Shown piece by piece: positions 1-43,006 of a DNA stretch of 64,000 nucleotides; within the stretch, counting starts at the first letter, position 1, and each line of letters opens with the position of its first letter. The DNA comes from Ruania halotolerans (GTDB lineage: Bacteria; Actinomycetota; Actinomycetes; Actinomycetales; Beutenbergiaceae), in assembly GCF_021049285.1 (NCBI RefSeq), contig NZ_CP088017.1, forward strand, positions 3,979,380-4,043,379. Reading direction: 5' to 3'. The notes below the pieces were generated by a model. That model had not been told where the DNA came from. It did not search any database and worked only from the letters and a program-made list of their open reading frames with translations. Both the position numbers and the translations under genes were made by a program.

Positions 1-667
1 TGTTGAAGGCGTACATCGGCTTCACACCCGTGCGCTCGGCGTGCCCGTTCAGCACCGGCATCACGGCCTTGATGCGCTCGGCCAGCGGCGCGTGCGGGCC
101 GTTGCCCTGCAGCTCGTCATCCTTGATGAAGTCGATCCCGCCCTCGGCGAGGTCTCCCACCAGCTCGGCCAGCTCGGCAGGACTCAACCCGATACTGGGT
201 TTGACGATCGTGCCCAGCAAGGCTCCGTCCGGCCGGGAGACGAGCCGCCTCGTGCCTGCCATCCCGAACTGCGGCCCCCGATAGCGCTCGGCGAAGGCGC
301 CGGGCAGATCGAGGTCGACCAGCTTGATCGCGCCGAGCTCCTTGATCTCGAACAGGTTGCCGGCCACTGCGGCCATCAGGTTCGGTAGCGACGGACCGAA
401 GTTGCTCAGCGGGAAACGGATGCGCAGCAGGGCTCGCCGCCGAGCTGCCGGATCGCCCACAGTGCCGGGCAGTGGGGATGCGCCCGTCAGCGGCAGTTCC
501 TCCAGGCTTTCCACCTGGGCGGCGAACCGGGCGCGGACCGAGTCCGATTCGCGTTCGACCCGCACGAAGGTGCCGGTGGACTGTTCGCCGGCCAGCACTT
601 CAGCCGCTCGCTCAAGTGGCAGTGAGGTCTCGATGGCGTACGTCGCAACAACATGGTCGGTTGCCAT
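1..667 (-). CDS. RuBisCO-like protein (form IV type), C-terminal part beyond window edge
   Basis: The 222 visible residues read as the N-terminal domain and the first barrel strands of a RuBisCO large-chain homologue. The segment GTIVKPSIGLSP carries the catalytic-lysine position (K156), and FIKDDE (K182, D184, E185) matches the carbamylated-lysine/Asp/Glu metal site. Known RuBisCO-like proteins act in methionine salvage or in D-apiose catabolism as 3-oxo-isoapionate-4-phosphate decarboxylase or transcarboxylase/hydrolase. True carboxylase function is unlikely because there is no Calvin-cycle context. Its ATG shares one base with the stop of the upstream GH127 gene, so the two are probably translationally coupled. 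The sugar-hydrolase context and an apionate operon at 39.5-43 kb favour an apiose-type role, which is inference. The missing C-terminal half prevents subfamily assignment. Confidence 0.85.
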   Translation of the reverse strand, partial: MATDHVVATYAIETSLPLERAAEVLAGEQSTGTFVRVERESDSVRARFAAQVESLEELPLTGASPLPGTVGDPAARRRALLRIRFPLSNFGPSLPNLMAAVAGNLFEIKELGAIKLVDLDLPGAFAERYRGPQFGMAGTRRLVSRPDGALLGTIVKPSIGLSPAELAELVGDLAEGGIDFIKDDELQGNGPHAPLAERIKAVMPVLNGHAERTGVKPMYAFN

Positions 668-2652
668 CACCACACCACCGGCAGCCAGACGGACATTTCC
701 GAGGGGCCGCGGTTGCTCCAGGCGAAGTACGGGATCAGCCGTACGGTGGCCGGCTGCAGGGGGGCGTCATCGAGATCGTCGTACAGTTCCTCGCGGGTGT
801 GCGGCAGGACCGCGATCTCCGTCTCCAGGGCAATGACGCGCTCACCGGCGATCGTCGTCTCCACCGGGACCGGATGTGTCCCGCGGCGCACGGCGGCCTG
901 CTCCAGCCGGACGCCGTCGGGCAGTTCGTGGCTTTCCACGCAGTACACGAGCGGCCCGCGCTGTACGGCCACCTGGTTGGTGACCTCCTCGGCGAGGCGA
1001 TGGCCCCGCACGAGGCGCACCGGCATCGGCAGGTCGAGCGTGAGTACGTCTCCGGCCTGCCAGTCCCGTTCGATACGGGTGTAGCTGGAGGGCTCGCTCG
1101 CGTCGATAGGTGTGCCGTTGACGGCGATCCGCGCCCCGCGTGACCAGCCCGGGATCCGTAGGTGGATCGGCACGCTGCCGGTGGCCTCGGTGACGGTGAA
1201 GGAGATGGCGCCGTCCCATGGGTACTGCGAACTCTCCTCCAGCACCACCCGCGCCCCGTGATGCTCGCCCCGGATCTCGGAGCCGCCGTACTGATGTACG
1301 TACAGGCCGTCCGGGCCCACCGAGGCGATGCGCTCATGCATCTCGGCGAGGGTGCGGGCGATGTTCGGCGGACAGCAGAAGCAGCTGAGATAGGACTGCC
1401 GGAGGCGTTCGTCCGAGGGTGGCGGCTCCGGAGTCGGACGCAGTGCGGTGTCACCGGACCGGCGCAGCGGGTAGGGCAGGTCGCGCACCTGCCGCAGCGG
1501 GTTGGTGTAGAAGTAGCTGGCGCCGTCGAGGCCGATACTGGCCAGCAGGGCGTTGTAGGAGATCGTCTCGATCACGTCGGCGTAGCGCGCCTCGGGGCGC
1601 AGCGCCAGCATCCGCTCGGACCAGAAGATCATGCCGATGTGCGCGCACGACTCGTTGTGCGCCGTCGTGTTGGGCAGTTGATAGGCCCGGCCGTAGGCCT
1701 GGTGGACCCGGCTGATCTCCTTCTGCCAGGGGTACCCGTCCGGGGAGGCGCCGTCGTAGAGGGCGCCACAGCCGCCGGTGAGGTAGAGCTTGGTCTGGAC
1801 CACGTCCTGCCACAGCCGCTCGAGCACCGTCTGCAGTTCGGCGTCCCCGGTCTCGGCGACGAGGTCGCTCAGGCCCGCGTACAGGTAATTGGCGCGCACG
1901 GCGTGCCCGGTCACCACGGTCTGTTCCCGGACCGGGATCCGGTCCTGGTTGTCGTCGCCGCCCTCGTCGAACTCGTCGCGCACCCGCAGGAAGGCCTCGG
2001 CCAGGCGCAGGTAGCGGGGATTGGCGGTGGCCCGGAACAGGTCGATGACCGCCATGTAGTGGGAGGGGCAGATCGCCGACTTCGCCAGCTCGGTGGGCTT
2101 GTCGGTGGCCAGCATCTCCAGGAAACCGGCGGCCTTCTCGGCGACGTCCAGGAGCGTCCGGGAGCCGGTGACGGCGTGGTGGCGCACGGCCACGGTGATG
2201 AGGTGGCCGAGGTTGTAGGTCTCGAAGTTGAAGCGGTCGGCGAGCGCCTGGACCTGCTGCTGCTGGCGCTCGGCGATGGCGGTCGGGGTGTGCAAGTACC
2301 CGTCCTCGCGCTGCACGGAGGCGATGAGGCGGCCGAGCTCGTCGATCCGCGCGGCGAGCTCGTCATCCCAGGCGAGTTCGAGCTGCACGACGGCGGACTC
2401 CAGCCATTTGTAGGTGTCCCCGTCCATGAACGGTGGTCCCTGGTGCTCGCCCTCCTCCAGACCAGCGGCGATACGGAAGTTGCGCAGGCCGGGGCTGATC
2501 GCAGGATCGCGAAGCATCTCCCACATCGAGGGGACCGTCACCTCACCGGTCCGGCGCGCGACGCCGCCCCAGAAGCCGGTCCGCCAGCGGGCACCCTCGG
2601 CACCGAGGGGCCTCCACGGCGCATGGGCGCGGGTCTGGGATGTGGCCGTCAT
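667..2652 (-). CDS. GH127 family glycoside hydrolase (beta-L-arabinofuranosidase type)
   Basis: A 661-aa protein with the GH127 hallmarks. E334 and C336 lie in NESCAHIG, and C426/C427 lie in CFCCPPN; in the Bifidobacterium enzyme HypBA1 the equivalent Glu and three Cys bind zinc and one Cys is the nucleophile. The family removes beta-L-arabinofuranose, and some members act on other branched or acidic pectin sugars. There is no signal peptide, so it is probably cytoplasmic and acts on imported oligosaccharides. The start at 2652 is preferred over an in-frame ATG 63 bases upstream because GAAAGGA sits six bases before it. It is first in a leftward unit with the RuBisCO-like gene and divergent from the racemase-fold gene. 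Confidence 0.9.
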   Translation of the reverse strand: MTATSQTRAHAPWRPLGAEGARWRTGFWGGVARRTGEVTVPSMWEMLRDPAISPGLRNFRIAAGLEEGEHQGPPFMDGDTYKWLESAVVQLELAWDDELAARIDELGRLIASVQREDGYLHTPTAIAERQQQQVQALADRFNFETYNLGHLITVAVRHHAVTGSRTLLDVAEKAAGFLEMLATDKPTELAKSAICPSHYMAVIDLFRATANPRYLRLAEAFLRVRDEFDEGGDDNQDRIPVREQTVVTGHAVRANYLYAGLSDLVAETGDAELQTVLERLWQDVVQTKLYLTGGCGALYDGASPDGYPWQKEISRVHQAYGRAYQLPNTTAHNESCAHIGMIFWSERMLALRPEARYADVIETISYNALLASIGLDGASYFYTNPLRQVRDLPYPLRRSGDTALRPTPEPPPSDERLRQSYLSCFCCPPNIARTLAEMHERIASVGPDGLYVHQYGGSEIRGEHHGARVVLEESSQYPWDGAISFTVTEATGSVPIHLRIPGWSRGARIAVNGTPIDASEPSSYTRIERDWQAGDVLTLDLPMPVRLVRGHRLAEEVTNQVAVQRGPLVYCVESHELPDGVRLEQAAVRRGTHPVPVETTIAGERVIALETEIAVLPHTREELYDDLDDAPLQPATVRLIPYFAWSNRGPSEMSVWLPVVW

Positions 2653-2794: not shown

Positions 2795-3481
2795 ATGACC
2801 TCCACCGCACCCTCCAGCACGTCTGCCGCCGCCACCCGGGTCGCCTTCCTGCACACCGGCGCCGTCGTGATCCCGCCCGTCATGGAGCTGGTCGGTGAGC
2901 AGCTCCCCGGCCTGAGCACAGTCAACTACCTCGACGATCGGATCGTGCCCGATCTCGCCGACCCGGCCCGCGAGGCTTCGGTCCCGGACCGACTGGCCGA
3001 CCTGGCCGCCGCCGCCAAGTCCGCCGGCGCCGACGTGCTGATGTTCACCTGCTCCTCGATCTCGCACCTGGCCGCTTCCACTGCGGAGAAGGCCGGGATC
3101 CCGGTGCTGCGCATCGACGAGGCGATGGCCGATGAGGCCGTGGCCGGTGGCGGGAAGGTGACCGTGCTGGCCACTCTGCCCACCACCTTGAACCCGACGC
3201 TCGCGCTGCTGCGTGAGCGGGCCGAGCTCGCCGGAACCCAACCCGAGCTGAGCAGCGAAGTGGTCCCGGGTGCCTTCGAGGCGGTGGCCGGCGGAGACCG
3301 CGCCACCCACGACCGGCTGGTGGCGGAAGCGATTGAGCGCCACGCCCCGGACAGCGACGTGGTGGTGCTCGCACAGGCCTCGATGGCCTCGGCCGCGGAG
3401 GCCTCGCAGGTCACCGTGCCGGTGCTGACCAGCTTGCGGCCGGGGATCGCACGCCTGGCCGAGCGCGTGCAGGCCGGCTGA
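2795..3481 (+). CDS. Asp/Glu racemase-superfamily protein with a single cysteine
   Basis: A 228-aa protein with the fold signatures of the aspartate/glutamate/hydantoin racemase superfamily: an FLHTGAVV strand near the start and MFTCSSISHL with C86. Classical racemases use two facing cysteines. Here the second site, in VVVLAQASMASA, has no Cys and the protein has only one in total. Single-cysteine members of the superfamily include decarboxylases and isomerases, so racemase activity should not be assumed. The start is supported by AGGAGAAG seven bases upstream; an earlier in-frame ATG at 2732 lies in the operator-like dyad. Divergence from the GH127/RuBisCO-like unit suggests a step in the same sugar-acid pathway, which is inference. 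Confidence 0.75.
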   Translation: MTSTAPSSTSAAATRVAFLHTGAVVIPPVMELVGEQLPGLSTVNYLDDRIVPDLADPAREASVPDRLADLAAAAKSAGADVLMFTCSSISHLAASTAEKAGIPVLRIDEAMADEAVAGGGKVTVLATLPTTLNPTLALLRERAELAGTQPELSSEVVPGAFEAVAGGDRATHDRLVAEAIERHAPDSDVVVLAQASMASAAEASQVTVPVLTSLRPGIARLAERVQAG

Positions 3482-3640: not shown

Positions 3641-6334
3641 TCAGGTCCGCATCCGGCGATGCTGCCCGTGCCCGAGTATCTCCGGCTCCGAGTCCGGCAG
3701 CTCCAGAATCGCCTCGGCGCCCACGGGTACCGTCACATCGACCACGAGTTCGCCCCGGGCGATCCGCCAGGAGATCGCGGCCTCGCCGTATGGGGTGAGG
3801 TGCCGCGCCGAGGCGTGCGTGAGCCCACCGCCGGGGCGCGGAGCGAACCGGATCCGGCGATAGCCCGGTTCTGCCGGAGCGAGCCCCGCCACTACCCGGT
3901 GCATCCAGTCGGCCACGGCGCCGAGGGCGTAGTGGTTGAACGAGGTCATCTTCCCCGGGTTGACGGTGCCGTCAGGCAACATCGAGTCCCACCGCTCCCA
4001 CACCGTCGTCGCGCCCTGTTCCACCTGGTACAGCCAGCTCGGGCACTCCCGCTCCTGCAGCAGCCCGTACGCCGTCTCCAGCTCACTGGCCGACGTCAAC
4101 GCATCGGTCACCAGCGGCGTGCCCACGAAGCCGGTCGCGATCCGGTGCCCAGCCTCGCGGACCAGTTCGGCCAGCCGCCGTCCGGCGACCTCCCGCTGCT
4201 CAGGCGTGAGCAGGTCGAACTCGAGCCCCAGGGCATAGGCGGTGACGGCGTCGCTGGTCATCCGCCCGTCCGGCAGCACGTAGGTGGCCCGGAAGGCCTC
4301 GGCGACGGCGTCCGCGAGCCTCCCGTAGCGCGCCGCATCCTCCGTAGCACCTAGCCGATCGGCGGTCTGAGCCATCAGCCGGGAGGACCGCGCGAAGTAC
4401 GCGCTGGCCACCAGGTACCGGTCGGTGCGTGCGTCGGCTGGGTCGTCCGGCGGGGCGGCCGGGTCGAGCCAGTCGCCGAGCTGGAAGCCCTCATCCCACA
4501 GGTGATCGTCCCCGGCCAACCGGTCTACCAGGTCCACCCAGCGGCGGGCGCTGCCGTACTGGGTCTCGAGCACCCCGGCATCGCCGAAGCGCTGATACAA
4601 GGTCCACGGCAGCATGGTCGCCACATCCCCCCACGCGGCGCCGGGGCGGATCGGCGTCCACATCCGGTGCGCCGGGATCACCGGCACGTACCAGGGCACA
4701 GTGCCGTCGGGGAGCTGGTCGGCCTCGACGTCGCGCAGCCAGCCGGCGAGCATCCCGGAGACGTCGTACAGGAATGACGCCGTGGGTCCGAACACCTGGA
4801 TGTCCCCGGTCCACCCGGCGCGCTCATCGCGCTGCGGGCAGTCGGTCGGCACGTCCACGAAGTTCGAACGCATCCCCCAGACGATGTTCTCGTGCAGCTG
4901 GCTCACGAGTTCATCGGAGCAGTCGAACCAGCCGGTGCGTTCGGCGTCGGTGTGCAGCACCCGGGCCACCAGCGCGCCGTCGGCCACATCGGCATCGAGA
5001 TCACCCGGCCAGCCATCCACCTCGACGTAGCGGAAGCCGTGGAAGGTGAACCGCGGCTCCCACTGCTCGATCTCGCGCCCGGCGAGAGTGTAGTGGTCGG
5101 TGGACCGCGCCGAGCGCAGCGGGCGGGTATAGAGCTCGCCCTCCTGCAGCACCTCGGCCGTGCGCAGCCGCACCGTCGCACCCGCCGGCCCCTGCACCCG
5201 GATCCGCACGCGGCCGGCGAGGTTCTGCCCGAAGTCGAGGATGCGGTGGCCGGCCGGGGAGGTGAGCACCGCCACGGGGTGCACCTCCTGGGTGCACCGC
5301 ACCGGGGGCGCCGTCGGGGCCACCAGCGTTGCGGGGTCGCGGTAGCGCACGGCCACCTGCTCCCACGCGTCGTCGTCGAACCCGGGGACCGACCACCCCG
5401 GCTGCTCGAGCCGGGCGTCGTGATCCTCGCCGTCGTAGATCCCCGAACGCACGATCGGACTCGGCGCCGTGCGCCAGGTGCGGTCGGTGGCGATCGTCTC
5501 GACGCGCCCGTCGGTGTAGGTCACCTCGAGCTGGCCGATGAAGGACAGATCTTCACCGAAAACGTTGCGGAATCCCTCGTACCAGCCGATCCGCCCCCGG
5601 TACCAGCCGTCCGCGAGCCAGGCCCCGACGGCGTTGGCCCCCGGGTGCAACAGCTCGGTGACGTCGTAGGTGTAGTACCGCAGCCGGGTGCCGTAGGAGG
5701 TCCATCCGGGCGAGAGAGTGTCCGTGCCCACGCGGGTGCCGTTGATCTCGGCCTCGTAGAGCCCGTGGGCGCTGGCGTACAGGCGCGCGCTCGCCACACC
5801 CTCGCCGAGTGTGAACTCCCGGCGGACGAGGGAGGGGCGCCGGGAGTCGGAGTCGCGCTGTTCCAGCCATCGGGCGCCGACGGGCCGGGCCTGCCAGTCC
5901 TCGGGACTGAGCAGTCCGGTTTCGAGCCGGGTCGGTTCGGAGGGCTCGGACCACTGACCGTCCGCACCGCAGACCTGTACGCGCACGGTGGCGGCTTCGC
6001 GCGAGGCCAGTGGTTCGAGCGGCCACGGCACGAGGATCTGCTCGGCCGAGTGGACCGCCACGGCGTGGTCGGTACCGACCGCCGCACCCCCTCCAGCCTC
6101 CGCCGCTGCGCCCGGACGGTTCTGTCCAAACTTGGCGGCTCCAGCATCCCGTCCAGGCTTGCCTGCCTGACCGGCGTCACCGACGCCACCGCGCACCACC
6201 AGCAGCCGGTAGCCGGTCTGCTGCCACCCAGGCGGCGCGGAACTGACCCGCCAGGAGACCCGCGGGCTCGCCTCGCCGATGCCCAGCGGCTCGCGGTGAT
6301 GTTCGATCGTGGGGGCGTCAGCGATGACGCTCAT
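3641..6334 (-). CDS. GH78 family alpha-L-rhamnosidase
   Basis: An 897-aa protein with the GH78 layout: N-terminal beta-sandwich modules, an (alpha/alpha)6 barrel and a C-terminal beta domain. The signature D498-CPQRDERAGWTGD carries the acidic residues that form the catalytic centre in characterised rhamnosidases. It should release terminal alpha-L-rhamnose from pectin or flavonoid glycosides. No signal peptide is seen, so it is probably intracellular. The start at 6334 follows AAGGTGG and gives MSVIADAPTIEHHREPLGI, a typical family N-terminus; an upstream in-frame extension is unlikely because it would run through the operators. A low-complexity insert (GDAGQAGKPGRDAGAAKFGQ and following) lies near the N-terminus. 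LacI-type operators control it. Confidence 0.93.
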   Translation of the reverse strand: MSVIADAPTIEHHREPLGIGEASPRVSWRVSSAPPGWQQTGYRLLVVRGGVGDAGQAGKPGRDAGAAKFGQNRPGAAAEAGGGAAVGTDHAVAVHSAEQILVPWPLEPLASREAATVRVQVCGADGQWSEPSEPTRLETGLLSPEDWQARPVGARWLEQRDSDSRRPSLVRREFTLGEGVASARLYASAHGLYEAEINGTRVGTDTLSPGWTSYGTRLRYYTYDVTELLHPGANAVGAWLADGWYRGRIGWYEGFRNVFGEDLSFIGQLEVTYTDGRVETIATDRTWRTAPSPIVRSGIYDGEDHDARLEQPGWSVPGFDDDAWEQVAVRYRDPATLVAPTAPPVRCTQEVHPVAVLTSPAGHRILDFGQNLAGRVRIRVQGPAGATVRLRTAEVLQEGELYTRPLRSARSTDHYTLAGREIEQWEPRFTFHGFRYVEVDGWPGDLDADVADGALVARVLHTDAERTGWFDCSDELVSQLHENIVWGMRSNFVDVPTDCPQRDERAGWTGDIQVFGPTASFLYDVSGMLAGWLRDVEADQLPDGTVPWYVPVIPAHRMWTPIRPGAAWGDVATMLPWTLYQRFGDAGVLETQYGSARRWVDLVDRLAGDDHLWDEGFQLGDWLDPAAPPDDPADARTDRYLVASAYFARSSRLMAQTADRLGATEDAARYGRLADAVAEAFRATYVLPDGRMTSDAVTAYALGLEFDLLTPEQREVAGRRLAELVREAGHRIATGFVGTPLVTDALTSASELETAYGLLQERECPSWLYQVEQGATTVWERWDSMLPDGTVNPGKMTSFNHYALGAVADWMHRVVAGLAPAEPGYRRIRFAPRPGGGLTHASARHLTPYGEAAISWRIARGELVVDVTVPVGAEAILELPDSEPEILGHGQHRRMRT

Positions 6335-6352
6335 AGGAACCACCTTTGCTTC

Positions 6353-6362
6353 GAAACGTTTC
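6353..6362. promoter_or_regulatory. LacI-family operator core GAAACGTTTC
   Basis: A perfect 10-base palindrome of the type bound by LacI/GalR repressors, 19 bases upstream of the GH78 start codon. The position suits repression of the leftward promoter. Confidence 0.65.
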
Positions 6363-6394
6363 AGCCTTACCCTAGTTGACGCTAGATTAAGAGA

Positions 6395-6416
6395 GAAACG
6401 CTCTTGTATACGTTTC
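6395..6416. promoter_or_regulatory. Second LacI-type half-site pair GAAACG-N10-CGTTTC
   Basis: Inverted GAAACG and CGTTTC half-sites are separated by ten bases, 33 bases from the first operator core, in the divergent region between GH78 and the apiosidase-like gene. A repressor bound here could control both directions. Confidence 0.45.
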
Positions 6417-6513
6417 ACACATGCAGACCGCAGCAGGCGGTTCACAGAGGTAGTCCACACCCTGGCCGACGCCAGGATCCGCCCCGCCTGGGGCACCGAC
6501 GAGGAGGTCGCTG

Positions 6514-8067
6514 ATGGCGCAGCGAGAGGCGCACGTGCACGAGCCCTACGAGATCGAACTCACCGGACCGCAGAGCCCGATCCGGGCCGATCAGGTTCCG
6601 TTCCAGGCCGAGTTCACTCACACCTCGGGCCGGGCGATGACCCTGCTGGGCTTCTGGGACGGCGAGCGCCGCTACCTCGTCCGCATCGCTCCCCCGCTCG
6701 CCGGAACCTGGACGTGGCGCACCAGCAGTGACGCGGCCGAGCTGGATGGTCACTCCGGCGAGTTCACCGCTGAGCCTGCTGAGCCCGCTGAGTCGGCCGA
6801 GTTCACCGACTCCCCCGCCCACGGAGTCGTCCGCGTCAACGCTCGTTTCCACTTCGCCCATGAGGACGGCACCCCGTTCCGCCCGGTCGGCGCCACGGTC
6901 TACAACTGGATCCATCAGGACGAGCCGCTGCGCACGCAGACGATGGCCTCGCTCAGCGAGGCGGGGCTCAACAAGCTTCGGTTCATGGTCTTCCCGCAGG
7001 CGGGCGGCTACGTCGAGCACTTCCCCGAGCTGATGCCGTTCGAGCGGACTGATGATGGCTGGGATGTGGGCCGCCCGAAGGTGGAGTTCTTCCGCCGCCT
7101 GGACTCCCTTGTGGCGGACCTGGGCAACCGCGGCATCGAGGCCGATGTGCTCATCTTCGACGCCTACGATCGCGGCGTCTTCGGCCTGAACGAGCTCACC
7201 GAGGAGCAGGACGCCGCCTACCTGCGCTACCTGGTGGCACGGCTCGGCGCCTATCCGAACGTGTGGTGGTCACTGTGCAACGAGTTCGACCAGATGACCG
7301 ACCGGCCCACGGAGCGATGGACCCGGGCCGGCGAGCTGCTCGCGAAGATCGACGCACACGATCACCTGCGCTCGATCCACAACTGGGTGGAGCTCTACGA
7401 CTACAACCAGCGCTGGGTCACCCACGCCTCGATCCAGAACGGGTACGCCACCGAGGCCCTCGGGCGCGCGAGCCTGTACCGGGACGTCTACCGCAAGCCG
7501 ATCGTGCTGGATGAGATCAAGTACGAGGGCGACACCGAACGCTGGGGCCGCCTGAGCGCGCCGGAGCTGGTGGACCGGTTCTGGATCACCACCGCCTCCG
7601 GTTGCTATGCCTCGCACGGGGAGAGCTTCGTGACCGAATCTGGCAGCCTGCACATCGTTGAGGGTGGCCGGCTGCGCGGGGAGAGCCCGGCGCGCTTGGG
7701 GTTCCTGCGCCAGGTGCTGGACGGGCTGCAGATTCCGGGGCTCGACCCGATCGACAAGTGGGACGATCCGGCCAGCGTGGTGGGCAAGGCGCGCGAGCAG
7801 TACCTGATCTATCTCGGCCGCGATGCCCCGGCCGAGTGGACCTTCCGGCTGCCGCAGGGCCATGACGGCGATCGCCTCAAGGTGGGCGATGCCTTCGAGG
7901 TTCAGATCATCGACACCTGGAACATGACCATCACCACCGCACCGGATGAGTACGTGCTCACCGAGGTGCAGCGCAACGACGCCTACGCGCACAACAACGC
8001 GCCGGTCGCGCTGCCGGAAGGTGAGGCGATCGCGCTGCTGATCACCCGCGTCCCCAGCGCCTCCTGA
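6514..8067 (+). CDS. DUF5060/DUF4038-type glycoside hydrolase, apiosidase-like (GH140-related)
   Basis: A 517-aa protein. Residues 1-95 read as a DUF5060 beta-sandwich. A TIM-barrel follows with clan GH-A catalytic signatures: E257 in SLCNEFD as likely acid/base and E334 in IVLDEIKYEGD as likely nucleophile. A DUF5605-like C-terminal beta domain ends the protein. Relatives with this barrel include GH140 apiosidases, which cut apiose linkages in rhamnogalacturonan II; the exact substrate here is inferred. An EPAEPAES linker joins the first two domains. GAGGAGG precedes the ATG. The GH2 gene starts 43 bases after the stop, so the two probably form one unit. No signal peptide is seen. Confidence 0.75.
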   Translation: MAQREAHVHEPYEIELTGPQSPIRADQVPFQAEFTHTSGRAMTLLGFWDGERRYLVRIAPPLAGTWTWRTSSDAAELDGHSGEFTAEPAEPAESAEFTDSPAHGVVRVNARFHFAHEDGTPFRPVGATVYNWIHQDEPLRTQTMASLSEAGLNKLRFMVFPQAGGYVEHFPELMPFERTDDGWDVGRPKVEFFRRLDSLVADLGNRGIEADVLIFDAYDRGVFGLNELTEEQDAAYLRYLVARLGAYPNVWWSLCNEFDQMTDRPTERWTRAGELLAKIDAHDHLRSIHNWVELYDYNQRWVTHASIQNGYATEALGRASLYRDVYRKPIVLDEIKYEGDTERWGRLSAPELVDRFWITTASGCYASHGESFVTESGSLHIVEGGRLRGESPARLGFLRQVLDGLQIPGLDPIDKWDDPASVVGKAREQYLIYLGRDAPAEWTFRLPQGHDGDRLKVGDAFEVQIIDTWNMTITTAPDEYVLTEVQRNDAYAHNNAPVALPEGEAIALLITRVPSAS

Positions 8068-11328: not shown

Positions 11329-12675
11329 ATGAACATCCGTCACCGGCGGCGCACCGTCGTCGCCGCGAGCGCCCTGCTCGCCACATCACTGACCCTCGCC
11401 GCCTGCTCCGGTGGCGGGGACGAGGACACCGACTCGGGGTCAGATTCCGACTCCGGATCGAGCATCGGGACCGACCCGGACAGCTTCGAGGTGATGACCG
11501 CCAACGAGAACCCCACGCTGCGCGAACAGCTCGACGCCCTGGCCGCGAACCAGTGCTCGGCCGAGAACGACGCGCTCCCGCTGGAGCACCGCACGATTGC
11601 CCAGGCCGACACCGTGCAGCAGATCACGCTGCTCGCCAGCCAGGGCGCCCTGCCCTCGCACTTCATCGCCGGTACCGATCAGGTCCGGCCCGATGGCGAT
11701 CTCGGCGGCGGCGGTCTCGTACTCGACTACGAAGAGGCCTTCACCGAGTCCGGCGCATGGGAGAACGTGCTGCCCGCCGCCGCCTCGACGATCGAGTCGG
11801 TCTACGGCCAGATGGTCTCCATGCCGTACCAGTACAACCTCGAAGGCTTCTGGTACAACAAGGAGATCCTCGCCGAGCTCGGCCTCGAGGAGCCGCAGAG
11901 CTACGACGAGCTCGTCGACGCTGCGGACGCGGCGGCCGAGGCCGGGTACATCCCGATCGCCCAGGCTGGTGCCGACGGTTGGCCGATGACCCGGCTGATG
12001 GGTCTGTACATCTTCCGCAACGTCGGGCCCGATGCCATGGCGCAGGTGCGTGACGGCGAAGCGAGCCTGACCGACCCGGAGTACGTGGCCGGCGCCCAGG
12101 CACTGCAGGACCTCGCACTCTCCGGGGCCTTGGGTGAGGGCTTCATCTCCCGCACCGGTGACCAGGCCACGGCGGCACTGCTCAGCGGGCAGGCCCTGAT
12201 GAAGTACGACGGCACCTGGCTGCTGAGCGCCGTCAACGACCCGGAGCGCAATGAGGTGGGCGAAGAGAACATCGGCTTCATGCCGTTCCCGGACGTCTCC
12301 GGCGGAGCCGGTAGCGCTGACCAGTACCCCGCGAACGCCGGTGCTGCGATGGCCATCAACCCCGAGACCTACGGCCCGCTGACGGCCGACTGGTTCGCCT
12401 GCATCGCCGAGAACTACGGCCAGCAGGCCCTCAGCGACGCCGGCGTGCTCTCCGGCTTCGCCGTGAACGGCGACGTCGGTGACATCCCCGCCGCCACCGC
12501 TGACATCCAGGAGCGGATGTCCACCATCGACGAGACCGTGTTGTGGTTCGAGGCACTGCTTGACTCCGAGAGCAACTCGCTGGCCTCGACGAACGTGTCG
12601 CTGCTCACCAACGGCGACATGAGCGCCGAGGAGTACATGACGCAGCTGCAGGAAAGCATCGACTCCAACCGTTGA
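11329..12675 (+). CDS. Sugar ABC transporter substrate-binding lipoprotein
   Basis: A 448-aa family-1 extracellular solute-binding protein. A basic N-terminus (NIRHRRR) and hydrophobic stretch end in the lipobox LAAC with C26, so it is lipid-anchored outside the membrane. An acidic linker (DEDTDSGSDSDSGS) follows, then a bilobed binding domain that includes SMPYQYNLEGFWYNKEI. The start after AGGAGG is preferred over one 39 bases upstream because it gives a proper lipoprotein signal. It begins a three-gene transporter unit. The ligand cannot be read from sequence; the adjacent glycosidases suggest an oligosaccharide or released sugar. Confidence 0.9.
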   Translation: MNIRHRRRTVVAASALLATSLTLAACSGGGDEDTDSGSDSDSGSSIGTDPDSFEVMTANENPTLREQLDALAANQCSAENDALPLEHRTIAQADTVQQITLLASQGALPSHFIAGTDQVRPDGDLGGGGLVLDYEEAFTESGAWENVLPAAASTIESVYGQMVSMPYQYNLEGFWYNKEILAELGLEEPQSYDELVDAADAAAEAGYIPIAQAGADGWPMTRLMGLYIFRNVGPDAMAQVRDGEASLTDPEYVAGAQALQDLALSGALGEGFISRTGDQATAALLSGQALMKYDGTWLLSAVNDPERNEVGEENIGFMPFPDVSGGAGSADQYPANAGAAMAINPETYGPLTADWFACIAENYGQQALSDAGVLSGFAVNGDVGDIPAATADIQERMSTIDETVLWFEALLDSESNSLASTNVSLLTNGDMSAEEYMTQLQESIDSNR

Positions 12676-12738
12676 TCGACAAGGTGGTCGCCGGCCCGGC
12701 CAGGGCCGGCGGCCACCTGCACGAAAGGACCTTCAGCG

Positions 12739-13620
12739 ATGACGCGAGTCTTCGGGGACAGGAAGACCATCCTGATCCTGCTCCTGCCTACTCTCTCCAT
12801 CTACGTCCTGCTCAAGGTGATCCCGGTTGCCTGGTCGCTGGGGCTGTCCTTCTTCCAGGGCAACACGCTGCGTGGGTTCGAGTTCATCGGGCTGGACAAC
12901 TTCCGGGAGTTCCTGGGTGATTCGGCGGCCCTGAACTCGGTGTGGGTGAGCGTCGGCTTCGCCGTGATCGTGACCATCGCCCAGGTGACCTTCGGCTACC
13001 TGCTCGCCCTGCTGTACGTCTTCGTTCTGCGCAAGGGCTCAGCGTTCGTACGTACCGCCGTCTTCTTCCCGATGGTGCTGCCCACTGTGGCGGTGGCGCT
13101 GCTGTTCAAGAGCCTGATCGCCGTCGGGGAGAATCAGGGCCCGGTCAATGACGCCATCAACGCCTTCGGCGGGGAGAGCATCGAGTTCCTCGCCTCCACG
13201 GCGGGCACGATGACCATCGCCGTGGTGATGACGTTGTGGAGCTCGATGGGCTTCTACGCCGTGCTGCTCTACACCGGCCTGCTGGACATCCCCGAGGAGG
13301 TGGTGGAGTCGGCCCGGATGGACGGGGCCACCGGCCCTCGCCTCGTGGGGTACATCATCATCCCGCTCTCGCTGCCGATTCTGCTTTCTTCGATCATCTT
13401 CAGCCTGAACGCCACGCTCAAGGTGTTCGACAGCCTGCTCGCCCTGAACAACGGCGGTCCGGGCACCACCACCGCTCCCCTGACCCTGTACATGTATCGC
13501 ACCGCCTTCGAGTACGCCGAGTACGGCTACGGCAGCACGATCGCCCTCGCACTGACCCTGCTGTGCCTGGTCTTCACGCTGGTGGTCTTCCGGCCCTCGA
13601 GCAAGCGCGTGGAGGACTGA
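12739..13620 (+). CDS. Carbohydrate ABC transporter permease, MalF/UgpA type
   Basis: A 293-aa protein with about six hydrophobic helices. The cytoplasmic EAA-loop equivalent reads EEVVESARMDGATGPRLVGYIIIPLS and contacts the ATPase. AAAGGA precedes the ATG, 63 bases after the binding-protein gene. It is followed after one base by the second permease, so the two are coexpressed and form the heterodimeric pore. No ATPase gene is nearby, so a shared MsmK/UgpC-type ATPase elsewhere probably drives it. Confidence 0.92.
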   Translation: MTRVFGDRKTILILLLPTLSIYVLLKVIPVAWSLGLSFFQGNTLRGFEFIGLDNFREFLGDSAALNSVWVSVGFAVIVTIAQVTFGYLLALLYVFVLRKGSAFVRTAVFFPMVLPTVAVALLFKSLIAVGENQGPVNDAINAFGGESIEFLASTAGTMTIAVVMTLWSSMGFYAVLLYTGLLDIPEEVVESARMDGATGPRLVGYIIIPLSLPILLSSIIFSLNATLKVFDSLLALNNGGPGTTTAPLTLYMYRTAFEYAEYGYGSTIALALTLLCLVFTLVVFRPSSKRVED

Positions 13621-13621
13621 C

Positions 13622-14527
13622 ATGACCACCGCACCCGCAGCAGCGCCCGTCCAGCTCCCCGGCCCGCGACCCCAGCCTCGACCTATGCGCCGCACGGCTC
13701 GCCGGATCGTGCGCCGCCTCCCCGTGTGGCTTCTTGTCACCGTCCTACTCGTGGTGATGCTCTATCCGCAGTTCTGGATGATCATGGGATCGTTCAAGAC
13801 CCAGACGGAGTTCTTCGCGAACCCCACCTGGGCGCTGCCGGAGCAGTTCAGCCTCGACAACTACATCGACGCGTTCACACGCGGCAATGTCGGCCTGAAC
13901 TACCGCAACAGCATGCTCGTGACCCTGCCCTCAGTGGGTCTGATCGTGCTGGCCGGCCTGGCCGCCGGGTACGCCCTGGAGGTCATGATCTGGAAGGGCC
14001 GCCGGCAGGTCCTGCTCTTCGTGATGGGCGGGATCATGGTGCCCGGGCAGATGATCCTGGTGCCGCTGTTCACCGCGTACTTCAAGCTCGGCATCACCGA
14101 CAGCCTGCTGCCGATGATCCTCACGTACACCGCGATGGGGATCCCACTGACGACGTTCCTGATGGCGGCGTATTTCCGGGCGATTCCGCGGGAGATCTTC
14201 GAAGCGGCCACGGTGGACGGCTGCGGGCCGCTGCGGTCGTTCTTCGTGATCGCCGTACCGCTGATGAAGAACTCGATGCTGACGATCGGGCTGATCCAGT
14301 TCTTCAGCGTGTTCAACGATCTGCTCATCGCGCTGACGTTCACCACGCGGCCGGAGCTGGCCACCATCCAGGTGGGCCTGCTGAGCCTGTCCGACCAGTA
14401 CGGGTCCACTCAGTACGGTGCGTTGTTCGCGGCCATCAGTATCAACATCATCGTGCTGCTGATCGTCTTCATCTTCCTGAACAAGAAGATCATGGCGGGG
14501 TTGGCGGCCGGGTCGGTGAAGGGCTGA
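13622..14527 (+). CDS. Carbohydrate ABC transporter permease, MalG/UgpE type
   Basis: A 301-aa protein with six predicted membrane segments and the EAA loop EIFEAATVDGCGPLRSFFVI. The N-terminal 40 residues are Pro/Arg-rich and cytoplasmic. Its start lies one base after the stop of the partner permease. It ends the transporter unit; about 170 bp without a recognised gene follows before the YtrA-type regulator. Confidence 0.92.
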   Translation: MTTAPAAAPVQLPGPRPQPRPMRRTARRIVRRLPVWLLVTVLLVVMLYPQFWMIMGSFKTQTEFFANPTWALPEQFSLDNYIDAFTRGNVGLNYRNSMLVTLPSVGLIVLAGLAAGYALEVMIWKGRRQVLLFVMGGIMVPGQMILVPLFTAYFKLGITDSLLPMILTYTAMGIPLTTFLMAAYFRAIPREIFEAATVDGCGPLRSFFVIAVPLMKNSMLTIGLIQFFSVFNDLLIALTFTTRPELATIQVGLLSLSDQYGSTQYGALFAAISINIIVLLIVFIFLNKKIMAGLAAGSVKG

Positions 14528-36022: not shown

Positions 36023-36044
36023 CACTGCTCCTTCCCCAAGAGGT

Positions 36045-36073
36045 GCAAGCATATTCACAGATGAATGAATTGC
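36045..36073. promoter_or_regulatory. Probable SorC operator
   Basis: ATTCA-N4-TGAAT (36053-36066) is a perfect inner dyad, flanked almost symmetrically by GCAA (36045-36048) and TTGC (36070-36073). It sits midway between the divergent SorC and SDR genes. Confidence 0.55.
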
Positions 36074-36134
36074 GCCAGTGGGCGCACCGCGACTAGGCTC
36101 GAAATCGCTATCTCACCACGAAGGAGTGTCGACG

Positions 36135-38252: not shown

Positions 38253-39493
38253 TGCGCACCGCAGCCAACAACCCCTTCAGCCCCGGTTCGGACACCATCC
38301 CTCAGGTCTGGGCCGGCCGGACCGTCCAACTGAGCGACTGGCGCGACATCGTGCGTCCGCGGCGCGACGCAGGGCTTCCCGAACGCGGACGCACCATCCT
38401 CGGCGAGGCAGGGCTCGGTAAATCCTCCCTCGTGCGCAAGATCGCCCGCGATGCGGCCGACGCCGGCGACTGGGTCACCCCGCAGCTGCGCATCCCCTCC
38501 GGATCGGACCCACTCAAGCGGGTCGCCACGGCAGCCTTGGCACTCGCCGACCGGGCGGGCCTGGCCACCTCGACGGAGAAGCGCGTCAGTGATCTCCTGG
38601 CCCGTGTGCAGAGGGTGGCAGTCAGCGGCGTGTCACTGTCGGTACGTCAGGCCGACGGCCCCGAGCCCTACACAGCACTCACCGACCTTCTCGTCGAGGT
38701 CGGTCAGGCCGCCATAGCCCAACACCGGATTGCACTCATCCACATCGACGAGATGCAGAACATCGCCGATGAGCAGGTGCTCTCCCAGCTCCTGATCGCC
38801 CTCGGCGACGCACTCTCGCACGAGGTTGCGGTCCCCCTCCCTGGTGGTCTGCACGCAACGCGAACGTTGCCGATCGCGGTGTACCTCACCGGGCTGCCCG
38901 AGTTTGCCGACATGGCCGGGGCGCGCAAGGGAGCCACGTTCGCCCGGCGCTTTGCTACGACCACGTTGAGCGCCATCGACGACAACGACCTCACCGCTGC
39001 CCTGCGTCCGTTCGTCATCGACGGCTGGGAGGTCACCGACGGAGATGGTGGTGTCGCACGGATCCGGATGGAACCGGCTGCCGCGGACCTGATCGTGACG
39101 CTCTGCCAGGGAGAACCCTTCCTCTTCCAACTTGCCGGCGAACGCGCCTGGTACGCGAGCACTGCGGACGTCATCGCCGCGGACCAGGTCCTCGCAGGCT
39201 GGGAGGTCGCCGCTCCGGAGGCGGTGGCCCATGTCGAGCGGATCCTCGAGCGGCTCCCGACCCGAGAACGAGAGTTCGTGCAAGTGATGGCCGAGCTCCC
39301 GGCGCCGGAGCGCACGCTCACGCGAATCGCGCAGGAGCTCGGGCTCACCAAGCACACCGATGCCGGCCCGACCTCACAGCGCCTCGACACCGTCCGAGGG
39401 ATCATCACCCGCGGAAAGCCCTATACCTTCAGGCACCGCGCCGTCGAGGCGTACCTCACGAGCGACTGGCCGTACGTGAGCCGGCACGACTAG
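38252..39493 (+). CDS. ORC1/Cdc6-like AAA ATPase
   Basis: A 413-aa STAND/AAA-type ATPase of the ORC1/archaeal-ATPase group. Walker A is GEAGLGKSS (residues 51-59), Walker B IHIDEMQN, sensor-like AVYLTGLPEF, and a C-terminal winged helix (TLTRIAQELGLTKHTDAGPTSQRLD). It resembles TniB-like or effector-free ATPases of unknown role. There is no ribosome site, and the GTG sits inside a palindrome, so expression is likely leaderless and tightly repressed. No partner gene is adjacent on the same strand; it converges with the apnL gene by four bases. Confidence 0.78.
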   Translation: MRTAANNPFSPGSDTIPQVWAGRTVQLSDWRDIVRPRRDAGLPERGRTILGEAGLGKSSLVRKIARDAADAGDWVTPQLRIPSGSDPLKRVATAALALADRAGLATSTEKRVSDLLARVQRVAVSGVSLSVRQADGPEPYTALTDLLVEVGQAAIAQHRIALIHIDEMQNIADEQVLSQLLIALGDALSHEVAVPLPGGLHATRTLPIAVYLTGLPEFADMAGARKGATFARRFATTTLSAIDDNDLTAALRPFVIDGWEVTDGDGGVARIRMEPAAADLIVTLCQGEPFLFQLAGERAWYASTADVIAADQVLAGWEVAAPEAVAHVERILERLPTREREFVQVMAELPAPERTLTRIAQELGLTKHTDAGPTSQRLDTVRGIITRGKPYTFRHRAVEAYLTSDWPYVSRHD

Positions 39494-41358
39494 GAGATCG
39501 TCCGCCTCACCCAGGACGCCTCCTCGACGCACTCGGTAACCGTCCCGGCGGGCGTGTTCACGCGCACCTCCCGCGAGACCGGGTGCAGGTTCGCCAGCAG
39601 CAGCGTGGTCTGGGGACCATCCGTACTTCCCACAGCCCAGAGCAGGCCGTCGGGGCTGTCGCCGCTCAGCAGTTGCACAGCCCCCGACGGCGCAGCGTGC
39701 GCCGATCTGTTCCCGTGCGTGACCGCAGGGTCACCCGGGGTCGCCAAGCAGAGGAGCGCCTCGATCGCGGCCGCCACCGGGTACGGCGTGCCGTCGCTAT
39801 CGACCACGCCGCGCGGGCCCCACTGCTCGAAGTAGCTGATCGAGGCAACCCCGGGCACTGCGAGCGCCGCTGCGCTGGCGATCGTCCAGGCGGCCAGCTC
39901 GGGTGCCTGCTGGCGCGGGTCGGTCGCGTCGGCCAGCGCCGGGCCGTAGCCCTCAGTCAGGTCGGTCCGTGTCGATCGCGCATAGTCGTGCTCGGCGACG
40001 GCATTGAAGGGCGGCCGCAGGGTCACCGGACCGATGTGCACCCCCGCCCCGCCGGCCTTCTCCCCCGCCAGCGCCACCATGCGGCGGGCAAGAATGCGCT
40101 GCATCGCCACCGACTCCACCAGCTGCGGGGTTCCGAGGTCGTGGAAGAGCGGCGACATCGCCACCGCCAACCCGTCCAGGTCGGCCGGGAGAAGGTGCTG
40201 CCCGCGGTTCAGTTCAGTGAAGTGGGATCGGGCGCCACCGACCACCGGCAGGTCCAGCCCGGCGGCGTCGAGCGCATCCCGGAGCACGGCGATCGTCGCC
40301 GTGTCGGAGACGTGTCGCGGGGACCCGCCGGCATAGGCACCCACCCGCAGCACGCGCCGGCCCACGAACCCATTGACGACGGAGCGCACCTTCTCGCGGT
40401 TGGCAGGGTCGGCTGAGTCGGCAGGTTCCAGCACCAGGCGCACGTCGAGCGGGTGGCCGCTGGCGACGGCGCGCTCCAGCACGGCCCGCCAGGTCGCCGT
40501 CCTGAGGTCAAGGTCGACCAGCAGCGGCACGCCCCTATCCATGCCGATCTCAGGCGCCGGGTCGGGCGCAGTCCCCGCGCCGAGACCGAACTGCGGGAGC
40601 GGGCCGGCAGCAGCGAGATCGATGACGTGCGGGCCGTGCCCACCAATCCCCTGCGAACTCACGCCCCGCCCCGGTGCCAAGGCGGCACCAGAGGGGACCT
40701 GCGCCGTCGTGCGTGATGCGCTGAGGATGAGGCCATGACGGATGCGCTCACCCGCCCCGATCCGATACGGGAACGGCAGGGAGAGGGGGCGGTTGTAGGT
40801 CTTGAAGGAAGCGTCGGTCCAGTTGCGCTGGTCCTCCATCTCGAACACGTCGCCCTCCAGGCCCAGCTCCACCCGGAGGCCGCCCTGATCCCAGGTGAGC
40901 CCGGCGATGTCGCGTGCCGGCTGATGCGGAGCGGGAGCCTCGGGGAACTCGGCCGGTGACCGGCCGCCGTCGGGGTGGCGTACGACCAGCGGGGTTCCGG
41001 CCAGTGCCGGGGGATGGAGCACGATCAGCCCGGCGCGGTTGGTCCACAGTTCCTCGGCGGGCTCCAGCTCAACCGTGGCGGTGAGCCGGTCGCCGTCGAT
41101 CTCCGCGCGCAGCGAGCCGGTGACCTGCGGCGCGGTGGCCTCGAGGCGCACGGTGACCGAGGCGTCGGTCATGTCCACGGAGGTCACCGACCACGGCACG
41201 GTCATCCAGTCGGCCACCCGAACGATCGCGCGCACCCCGCGCAGCAGCACCTGCCCGTCCACGGCGATCTCGGCGAGTTCACCGTCGCGGACGAGCAGGG
41301 CCCACCGCCCGCTCGTGACGGAGCGGGCCGGCGGGAACCAGGCTGGCCCCTCGGGCAT
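39490..41358 (-). CDS. apnL: D-apionate lactonase-like protein
   Basis: A 622-aa protein consistent in length with ApnL, the lactonase that opens D-apionolactone to D-apionate. The N-terminal half is beta-rich and the C-terminal half looks like a modified TIM barrel with LRPPFNAVAEHDYARSTRT and SISYFEQWGPRGVVDSDG. No standard lactonase motif can be pointed to, and the call rests mainly on its neighbours ApnO and OiaC. Its ATG overlaps the apnO stop (ATGA). It is last in the leftward three-gene operon. Confidence 0.68.
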   Translation of the reverse strand: MPEGPAWFPPARSVTSGRWALLVRDGELAEIAVDGQVLLRGVRAIVRVADWMTVPWSVTSVDMTDASVTVRLEATAPQVTGSLRAEIDGDRLTATVELEPAEELWTNRAGLIVLHPPALAGTPLVVRHPDGGRSPAEFPEAPAPHQPARDIAGLTWDQGGLRVELGLEGDVFEMEDQRNWTDASFKTYNRPLSLPFPYRIGAGERIRHGLILSASRTTAQVPSGAALAPGRGVSSQGIGGHGPHVIDLAAAGPLPQFGLGAGTAPDPAPEIGMDRGVPLLVDLDLRTATWRAVLERAVASGHPLDVRLVLEPADSADPANREKVRSVVNGFVGRRVLRVGAYAGGSPRHVSDTATIAVLRDALDAAGLDLPVVGGARSHFTELNRGQHLLPADLDGLAVAMSPLFHDLGTPQLVESVAMQRILARRMVALAGEKAGGAGVHIGPVTLRPPFNAVAEHDYARSTRTDLTEGYGPALADATDPRQQAPELAAWTIASAAALAVPGVASISYFEQWGPRGVVDSDGTPYPVAAAIEALLCLATPGDPAVTHGNRSAHAAPSGAVQLLSGDSPDGLLWAVGSTDGPQTTLLLANLHPVSREVRVNTPAGTVTECVEEASWVRRTIS

Positions 41359-42215
41359 CAGCGCTCGATGGCGTCGAGGTGCAGCATGCGGGCGAGGTTC
41401 TTGTCGAGTTCGTCGTCACGGAAGATCTTCTTCCAGTCCTCCTTGATGATCGACTCGCGCCCGTAGTCCATGGCGATCAGGCACGCGTCGCTGAACGGGT
41501 TGTCCCCGCGCAGACCGTTCGCGAGCGCCACCTGGGTGTGGCCGTAGAGGATGCTGCGCGCGGCGGCCTCGGGCACGCCCATCGTGTTCACCGCCTCCTG
41601 CAGTGCCTCGTTCAGCAGCTCACCGATCATGCAGGCCACGGTCTCCACCAGGGTCGGCTCGAGCTGGGCGAGCTGCTTGACGGTGACCCAGTGCACGTCG
41701 ATCACGGGGGCGTAGATGGCGCGGACCGTGGTCTCCACAAGGGTCTTCACGGCCTCATCGTCGGACTCGACGGCGGCAATGGCATCCTGCGGGGCGGCGA
41801 TGCCGCCGAAGGTGTCGGCCCACTCCTCGGGGGTCTTGCGCTGCAGGAAGACCGACGGGTGGCACGGGTGGGCGACCGCCTGGATGACATCCTCGCGGGT
41901 GGCGAGCAATCCGGCGTAGGCGGCGGCCGGGTCGAGGGTGAGCACCACGGCGCCGGCGCGCATCTGCGGCACCAGCTCGGCGGTGACCGAGGCGAGCGCG
42001 AGGTCCGGCACCGCCAGGACGACGATGTCGGCGTCGGCTACGGCGGTGGCGGCGTCGGTCAGCTCGCGGCCGGCGTCGATCGTGCGCTGGCGGCCGGCTT
42101 CAGAGTTCTCGACGTAGCGGACCGTGTGGTCGGTGCGGACGAGGTTGTTGGAGACGCGCATCCCCATCTTCCCGCCGGCGCCGATGACGGCGATCGTGTA
42201 CGTGTTCTCACTCAT
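41358..42215 (-). CDS. apnO: D-apionate oxidoisomerase (6-phosphogluconate dehydrogenase-like fold)
   Basis: A 285-aa protein. A Rossmann motif VIGAGGKMGMR (from about residue 7) and a PGDH_C-type helical domain (TVKQLAQLEPTLVETVACMIGELLNEAL; ALANGLRGDNPFSDACLIAMDYG) match the family that includes ApnO. That enzyme oxidises D-apionate and moves a hydroxymethyl group to give 3-oxo-isoapionate. HPCHPSVF probably contributes to the active site. GAGGAG lies seven bases before the ATG; its start overlaps the oiaC stop. Confidence 0.78.
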   Translation of the reverse strand: MSENTYTIAVIGAGGKMGMRVSNNLVRTDHTVRYVENSEAGRQRTIDAGRELTDAATAVADADIVVLAVPDLALASVTAELVPQMRAGAVVLTLDPAAAYAGLLATREDVIQAVAHPCHPSVFLQRKTPEEWADTFGGIAAPQDAIAAVESDDEAVKTLVETTVRAIYAPVIDVHWVTVKQLAQLEPTLVETVACMIGELLNEALQEAVNTMGVPEAAARSILYGHTQVALANGLRGDNPFSDACLIAMDYGRESIIKEDWKKIFRDDELDKNLARMLHLDAIER

Positions 42216-43006
42216 GTGGTGCTCCTCAGATAGTCGACGGCGGTACGGGTCCATTCCCGTTCCGTGCGGATGGTGGTCTCGGGGTCGTCCTGCCAGGGCA
42301 GCCAGTGCTCGACCACCTCGTTGATGCCGCGTTCGCGCGGGCGGACGGTGCGCAGTAGGTGCGGGTAGTCGTGCAGGCCCTCGCCCATCGGGGCGCCGCT
42401 ATAGGTGAAGCCGACCCAGCCGGGCTGGCGGGCGAAGGCGTAGTCCTTCACGTGCACGGCACGGGTGAGATCGGCGACCTGCTCCACGCAGGCCTGCGGG
42501 TTCTCCAACCGGGCGACGACGTTGCCCGGGTCGAGGCAGATCCCCAAGTTCTCGCTGCCGACTCCTTCGACGAGGCCGAGCAGGTCGGTGGTGGGCAACT
42601 GTTCGTAGGTTTCCAGGGCGAGGGTGACGCCGGCTGCTTCGAAGGCGGGCATCGTCTCGGTCAACCACTGGCGGGCTTGCTCGAGGGTGGGCCGCGAGTC
42701 GGGCCCGTAGATCATGGTGCGGATCAGTGTGGCGTCGAAGACGGCGGCAATCTCCAGGAAGCGGGCCAGGTGGCCGGGGTCGATGCCCTTGGTGCCGAGC
42801 TCGATCACCAGGTCCAGGTCTTGTGCTGCGGCGGCGGCATCGGCGAGTTCGGCGTCATCCATCTGCTCCAGCGGCGCGTAGTCGCAGATCTGATGCAGGC
42901 CGATGCCGAGGTCGCGGGTGGCCTGGAAGGCCTCCGGCAGCGTCATCGGCCGCGGGTTGCGGTCGGAGAGCTGCCAGAAGAAGGCGTAGGTGCCGAGTCC
43001 GAACAT
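42212..43006 (-). CDS. oiaC: 3-oxo-isoapionate decarboxylase-like TIM-barrel protein
   Basis: A 264-aa xylose-isomerase-like TIM barrel. Metal-site acids and histidines are visible in GLHQICDY, VTLALETYEQLPT, LGICLDPGNVV and AVHVKDYAF. OiaC enzymes of this fold decarboxylate 3-oxo-isoapionate to L-erythrulose. It is first in the operon oiaC-apnO-apnL. No ribosome site is seen, and the start is only ten bases from the regulator dyad, so the message may be leaderless. Confidence 0.75.
   Translation of the reverse strand: MFGLGTYAFFWQLSDRNPRPMTLPEAFQATRDLGIGLHQICDYAPLEQMDDAELADAAAAAQDLDLVIELGTKGIDPGHLARFLEIAAVFDATLIRTMIYGPDSRPTLEQARQWLTETMPAFEAAGVTLALETYEQLPTTDLLGLVEGVGSENLGICLDPGNVVARLENPQACVEQVADLTRAVHVKDYAFARQPGWVGFTYSGAPMGEGLHDYPHLLRTVRPRERGINEVVEHWLPWQDDPETTIRTEREWTRTAVDYLRSTT

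Follow-up and report, generated by a model that had tools for sequence, protein, structure and literature searches.

The stretch of DNA considered here, 64,000 nucleotides from the soil actinobacterium Ruania halotolerans (the window; G000:C1:3979380-4043379), lies inside a complete one-contig genome of 4.27 Mb and begins within a compact operon. On the minus strand, the gene for a glycoside hydrolase of family 127 (GH127) is followed by one for a RuBisCO-like protein (RLP) and then by one for a DUF1537 kinase, and a racemase-fold protein, here called RAC, is encoded divergently. From the gene order, co-occurrence, protein families and active-site residues observed at this and related loci, we infer a substrate and every catalytic step of a pathway, and we consider it slightly better than an even chance that the operon and RAC together serve to break down L-aceric acid (3-C-carboxy-5-deoxy-L-xylose), a rare, branched acidic sugar found in side chain B of the pectin rhamnogalacturonan-II. 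The genes concerned are:

Window 667..2652, minus strand: GH127 glycosidase, predicted to be of the BT1003 (aceric acid hydrolase) type from Pfam, NCBIfam, the PDB match 5mqo and an insert
Window 1..667, minus strand: 5′ part of the RLP gene, recognized by Pfam PF00016/PF02788 and its catalytic residues
Genome 3977523-3978797, minus strand, outside the window: DUF1537 four-carbon-acid kinase, Pfam PF07005/PF17042
Window 2795..3481, plus strand: RAC, a single-cysteine protein of 228 residues with a predicted Asp/Glu/hydantoin racemase fold, Pfam PF01177

The window edge cuts the RLP gene, whose full product comprises 418 residues from its ATG (genome 3978790-3980046, minus strand). The TGA stop of GH127 (window 669-667) and the ATG start of RLP (667-665) have base 667 in common (TGATG, 669-665), and the junction reads CCGGTGGTGTGGTGATGGCAACC on the sense strand; the original prediction had described just such a one-base overlap and had placed it correctly. 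It had also suggested looking to the left of the window for a four-carbon-acid kinase, and the DUF1537 kinase is indeed the next gene there; it begins with GTG, and its start and the RLP stop overlap by 8 bases. GH127 and RLP lie similarly close together, with -4 to +71 bases between their aligned ends, at 22 loci in other genomes (nearly all of them actinobacterial), so the tight spacing is not a matter of chance. Open reading frames (ORFs) in the high-GC comparison loci were called by simple scripts, and some starts are approximate. Close GH127-RLP-kinase spacing is likewise kept across many actinobacterial loci.

Work on GH127, a family otherwise of beta-L-arabinofuranosidases, has shown that BT1003 of Bacteroides thetaiotaomicron is an aceric acid hydrolase (PMC10850190). 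The Ruania GH127 carries all three Pfam domains (catalytic, middle and C-terminal) above their gathering scores, at 309, 83 and 75 bits, and its best PDB match is 5mqo (BT_1003), at 600 bits, the next being at 351. The two proteins have in common the motif GPPF.DGD.YKW.E and the insert GALYDG(A/T)SPDG, the latter absent from the arabinofuranosidase-type paralogues examined, one of which, from the same genome, reaches 339 bits on the NCBIfam aceric acid hydrolase model. By these sequence features the Ruania enzyme resembles BT1003, its closest solved relative, rather than the beta-L-arabinofuranosidases, and it differs from BT1003 in being translationally coupled to an RLP. The original prediction of a pectin-type glycosidase was right as far as it went and can now be sharpened to the BT1003 type.

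The second gene encodes an RLP of form IV, sugar-acid branch, as judged by the presence of both RuBisCO_large (E 7e-66) and RuBisCO_large_N domains together with scores below the cut-offs for true RuBisCO. The metal-site motif IKDDE is present (K201, D203 and E204), in agreement with the intact metal site originally reported, and the other main catalytic residues are there too: in RuBisCO-equivalent numbering the protein retains E60, T65, N123, K175, K201, D203, E204, H294, R295, H327, K334, S379, G403 and G404, with K177, W66 and H298 not retained. Methionine-salvage enolase (MtnW) was rejected as an identity, with 153 and 197 bits against cut-offs of 513.6 (TIGR03332) and 409 (NF007095), and so was true RuBisCO, with 249 bits against the type III cut-off of 497; the grouping with salvage enolases that might have undone the original prediction was thus not found. 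The RLP of Ruania rhizosphaerae is 91% identical.

In apionate breakdown, the oxidoisomerase ApnO makes 3-oxo-isoapionate, HOOC-C(OH)(CH2OH)-CO-CH2OH, which OiaK then phosphorylates. OiaX, a 3-oxo-isoapionate-4-phosphate decarboxylase, belongs to the same superfamily branch as the Ruania RLP, with about 42% identity and likewise a DUF1537 kinase as partner, but its gene neighborhood differs, and it has lost four residues that the Ruania protein keeps. All six OiaX sequences examined have D60, G123, Q327 and G or C at 379, in contrast to E, N, H and S at these positions in the Ruania RLP and in 87 or 88 of 88 other relatives, the exceptions being a truncated sequence and another with alanine at 379. 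The family thus falls into two classes, one of decarboxylases and one retaining the RuBisCO carboxyl-handling residues, and the Ruania RLP belongs to the latter. Identity with OiaX itself was ruled out by these four residues and by a score of 413.6 bits on model NF042437, where the cut-off is 700. The closest solved RLP, 3nwr of Burkholderia fungorum (383 bits), has the same intact residue set and sits on a long branch.

According to a review citing Carter et al. 2018, the RLPs of Agrobacterium radiobacter and Xanthobacter autotrophicus act on 3-oxo-isoapionate 4-phosphate by decarboxylation and by transcarboxylation-hydrolysis, respectively (PMC6302742). XacX, the Xanthobacter enzyme, takes part in breaking down a sugar acid together with a kinase, as the Ruania RLP would, and its carboxyl transfer and hydrolysis, yielding 3-phosphoglycerate, is the chemistry that we propose for the latter. 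By analogy, the class retaining the carboxyl-handling residues would match the Xanthobacter reaction, and the intact residue set of the Ruania protein is compatible with carboxyl transfer. The proposed likeness is one of chemistry. In contrast to the XacX system, the Ruania locus has RAC and no ApnO, and the proposed substrate has CHOH-CH3 in place of CH2OH, so that lactate would arise instead of glycolate.

The kinase carries both DUF1537-family domains, SBD_N and NBD_C, and scores 269 bits on the 3-oxo-isoapionate kinase (OiaK) model NF042436, well short of its cut-off of 700. RAC matches PF01177 with 68 bits against 31, and its predicted structure (mean predicted local distance difference test score, pLDDT, 92.8; Z 21.9 and root-mean-square deviation 2.4 over 208-210 residues with aspartate racemases) allows the Asp/Glu/hydantoin racemase fold to be assigned with confidence. 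It has one invariant cysteine, the second racemase cysteine being replaced in the motif LAQ(A/G)SMA by Ala or Gly in 37 of 37 sequences; an amino acid (Asp/Glu) racemase, which requires two catalytic cysteines, was accordingly rejected. Arylmalonate decarboxylase, which has this fold in common with RAC and the Asp/Glu/hydantoin racemases, also has one of the two cysteines, but it keeps the C-terminal one and RAC the N-terminal one, and RAC differs from all of these enzymes in its location in sugar-acid loci. We propose that RAC is an aldose-ketose isomerase, since a single acid-base residue would suit one-face proton transfer of the kind seen in such isomerases.

The association of these genes was followed in two samples, 394 genomes of the class and a collection of 80 loci scanned for RLP neighbors. 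Aceric-type GH127 scores in the class are bimodal, at 640-779 bits in nine genomes and no more than 437 in all others. All nine genomes with a BT1003-type GH127 also have an RLP, which occurs in 12 of the 394 (hypergeometric P 4e-16), and all nine have RAC, which occurs in 10 (P 2e-17), although these P values are optimistic because the genomes are related. ApnO is found in eight of the nine, which fits a shared diet of rhamnogalacturonan-II, and it occurs without an RLP in nine other genomes of the class. GH127, RLP and RAC are all present in a genome of Occultella, from the family to which Ruania belongs, in which ApnO was not found.

Among the 80 loci, RAC was present in 36, ApnO in 26 and both in three; such limited overlap is what one would see if RAC and ApnO were alternative suppliers of the ketone to one kinase-RLP pair. 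Every one of the 26 loci with a BT1003-type GH127 has RAC (one has ApnO as well), and neither RAC nor a BT1003-type GH127 occurs in any of the 23 ApnO-only loci. The arrangement extends to other phyla: an Anaerolineae metagenome-assembled genome (Chloroflexota) has GH127 (1019 bits, above the curated cut-off of 950), RAC, an ATP-binding cassette (ABC) transporter, RLP and kinase in a row; Bythopirellula (Planctomycetota) has RAC, kinase and RLP together with a GH127 of 943 bits; and a Verrucomicrobia genome with a RAC-type locus has an 879-bit GH127 copy elsewhere. ApnO was not detectable in the RAC-type genomes of Bythopirellula, the Verrucomicrobia representative, Desertihabitans, four Paenibacillaceae and Nonomuraea.

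Taken as a pathway, GH127 would free L-aceric acid, and RAC, by means of its one catalytic cysteine, would convert the aldose to the 2-ketose CH2OH-CO-C(OH)(COOH)-CHOH-CH3. RAC would thereby take the place of ApnO, as an aldose-to-ketose shift alone would turn aceric acid into a ketone like 3-oxo-isoapionate. The DUF1537 kinase would phosphorylate the CH2OH end, giving the core HOOC-C(OH)(R)-CO-CH2-OP of 3-oxo-isoapionate 4-phosphate, with R being CHOH-CH3 instead of CH2OH. Finally, the RLP would move the carboxyl group and hydrolyze the chain, much as the X. autotrophicus enzyme reportedly does, to give 3-phosphoglycerate and lactate, predicted to be L-lactate from the configuration of aceric acid. 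The retained carboxyl-handling residues point to this transfer and hydrolysis, whereas decarboxylation would call for an aldolase. No aldolase gene is conserved across RAC-type loci, and an aldolase as the conserved next step was rejected on that ground.

Next to RAC, the window holds a cluster of genes for the breakdown and uptake of cell-wall glycans, and farther along a regulator-dehydrogenase pair and an apionate-type operon:

3641..6445, minus strand: GH78 alpha-L-rhamnosidase of the cell-wall glycan cluster, Pfam Bac_rhamnosid domains
6514..8067, plus strand: DUF5060/apiosidase-like/DUF5605 glycosidase, Pfam PF16586, PF13204 and PF18310
8111..11233, plus strand: GH2 beta-galactosidase of the LacZ type, Pfam and NCBIfam
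11332..14527, plus strand: ABC sugar transporter, with a substrate-binding lipoprotein and two permeases (12739-13620 and 13622-14527), called from ORFs only
35054-36965: SorC-type sugar-binding regulator and short-chain dehydrogenase/epimerase
39490..43006, minus strand: separate apionate-type operon, outside the proposed pathway, with ApnL-like, ApnO-like and OiaC-like genes, NCBIfam and Pfam

In side chain B, galactose and rhamnose are the linkage partners of aceric acid, with apiose nearby, and the GH78, apiosidase-like DUF5060 glycosidase, GH2 and sugar transporter genes around the operon fit that structure. In many relatives, too, GH78 and the RLP are no more than 10 kb apart, GH2 adjoins the RLP in 19 loci, and relatives of the transporter genes are also present in RAC-type loci. 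Relatives of the SorC regulator and the dehydrogenase adjoin RAC-type loci in several Microbacteriaceae, and this pair probably belongs to the same regulon as the RAC-type module. In the apionate-type operon, which the original prediction had correctly located 39 kb away, the ApnL-like gene scores 180 bits on NCBIfam ApnL (cut-off 750), the ApnO-like gene has a PGDH_C domain, and the OiaC-like gene, of PF01261, has counterparts adjoining ApnO in six other genomes.

One further gene encodes a flavin adenine dinucleotide/iron-sulfur (FAD/Fe-S) 2-hydroxy-acid dehydrogenase of 928 residues (L068:12524-15310; also in loci L069, L072, L075, L077, L078, L080, L081, L084 and L093). Of the 36 RAC loci, 10 contain it, as against none of the 23 with ApnO only. 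In two Microbacterium genomes it lies immediately 3′ of the kinase gene, and Ruania halotolerans has a 51% identical copy at another place in its genome. This gene is partly supportive, given that its relatives mostly use D-hydroxy acids, and L-lactate is predicted here. Several other observations also weigh against an aceric acid module. The Ruania GH127 reaches 755 bits on the NCBIfam aceric acid hydrolase model NF049879, below the cut-off of 950. We know of no member of the racemase superfamily that acts as an aldose-ketose isomerase. Loci of Paenibacillus have RAC, RLP and kinase without a BT1003-type GH127. Because rhamnogalacturonan-II contains apiose as well, finding the module together with enzymes for this pectin is not enough to decide between the two sugars. 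Moreover, in quick trees of the RLPs the RAC-type and ApnO-type proteins interleave, with 6-7 label changes, clustered but not forming one clade; RLP sequence alone therefore does not mark the substrate, and assignment from the tree alone was dropped. The RLP may accept both substrates, or the loci may exchange genes.

Of the alternatives, one keeps both module and substrate and makes the RLP a plain OiaX-like decarboxylase, giving a 5-deoxypentulose 1-phosphate that a class II aldolase would split into dihydroxyacetone phosphate and acetaldehyde. The nearest curated family, OiaX, is a decarboxylase, the Ruania genome has four class II aldolase-family genes, and a planctomycete locus has one near its RLP; we nonetheless regard this route as unlikely, because the RLP retains the four residues lost in all OiaX sequences examined, and because aldolase genes are neither conserved in the operon nor common within 10 kb in RAC-type loci. 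The fold in common is what would speak for a methionine-salvage enolase or a true RuBisCO, an identity that the scores given above and the neighboring glycosidases and sugar-acid kinase leave with a negligible chance.

The substrate itself could also be another one. If the RLP and kinase were a second, phosphorylating branch of apionate breakdown, beside a non-phosphorylating one as the original prediction had entertained, RAC would be unrelated to them. The RLP-kinase pair does adjoin ApnO in Pseudomonadota and Bacteroidota, apiose is present in rhamnogalacturonan-II, and Ruania has its apionate-type operon; that operon, however, already has its own OiaC-like decarboxylase, ApnO occurs without an RLP and RAC-kinase-RLP without a detected ApnO, as described above, and the tight link of RLP to BT1003-type GH127 and RAC would go unexplained. 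The two-branch idea is weakened by these findings, and we think it quite improbable. A comparably low probability attaches to the GH127 being a beta-L-arabinofuranosidase or some other enzyme, with the RLP module processing a different branched acid from plant glycans. The majority of characterized GH127 enzymes are indeed beta-L-arabinofuranosidases, and the glycosidase next to other RLP-kinase pairs can differ: in Croceibacterium it is a divergent GH127, in Paenibacillus and Streptomyces a member of a remote GH127-like family. Against this reading stand the wide score gap to the arabinofuranosidase-type paralogues, the one in the same genome included, the BT1003-specific insert, and the Anaerolineae orthologue, which exceeds the curated cut-off and belongs to an equivalent gene set in a different phylum. 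The second suggestion of the original prediction, another branched sugar acid as the RLP substrate, is well supported, and that this acid is aceric acid can be said with fair confidence.

Several other loci depart from this arrangement. In place of a BT1003-type GH127, the loci of Paenibacillus, Kribbella and Streptomyces have a remote relative, a family of 574-607 residues (L108:7554-9278, L111:7539-9266, L116:7524-9251, L125:7541-9277, L089:7161-8984 and L171:7002-8723) that lies just upstream of RAC-RLP-kinase in Paenibacillus and Cohnella and near the RLP in Kribbella and Streptomyces. Its members have no Pfam match above cut-off and retain the GH127-like E-x-C and CC motifs; a model of the Paenibacillus protein, of low confidence (mean pLDDT 60), finds its best matches among GH127 and GH146 structures, which is only supportive. 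The family may be an unclassified cysteine glycosidase replacing the aceric acid hydrolase. On a Croceibacterium plasmid (L170:12190-16543), the divergent GH127, RLP and kinase stand in a row within a polysaccharide cluster that also has GH28, GH2, fucosidase, sialidase-like and TonB receptor genes, and neither RAC nor ApnO is found in the annotated stretch. A Rhizobium gallicum plasmid gene annotated as OiaX (L203:271-1554) lies between two aldo/keto reductase genes and, as the kinase is not adjacent, its product may have a different substrate. The RLP class reaches the archaea, with RLP and kinase on a Haloarcula plasmid (L193:4719-10636) that has an aldolase and a tripartite ATP-independent periplasmic (TRAP) transporter nearby. 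Elsewhere in the window, two ORF copies in opposite orientation with the same opening residues, about 3.3 kb apart (50892-51287 and 54630-55025), look like an IS5-type transposase.

No catabolic route for aceric acid was found in the open literature, a scope that leaves out most subscription papers, and the novelty of the proposed route is provisional. We put at an even chance that bacteria of several phyla have an undescribed L-aceric acid pathway in which a racemase-fold isomerase and an RLP lead to 3-phosphoglycerate and lactate. Rhamnogalacturonan-II occurs across land plants, and its sugars must be recycled. If the pathway is real, the aceric acid released by BT1003-type enzymes would gain a route into central metabolism, and RLPs, for which few substrates are known so far, would gain one more. 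The single-cysteine racemase family would acquire a testable function, and there would be a natural class of RLPs that uses RuBisCO carboxyl-handling residues in sugar-acid breakdown, which would be useful for understanding how RuBisCO chemistry evolved.

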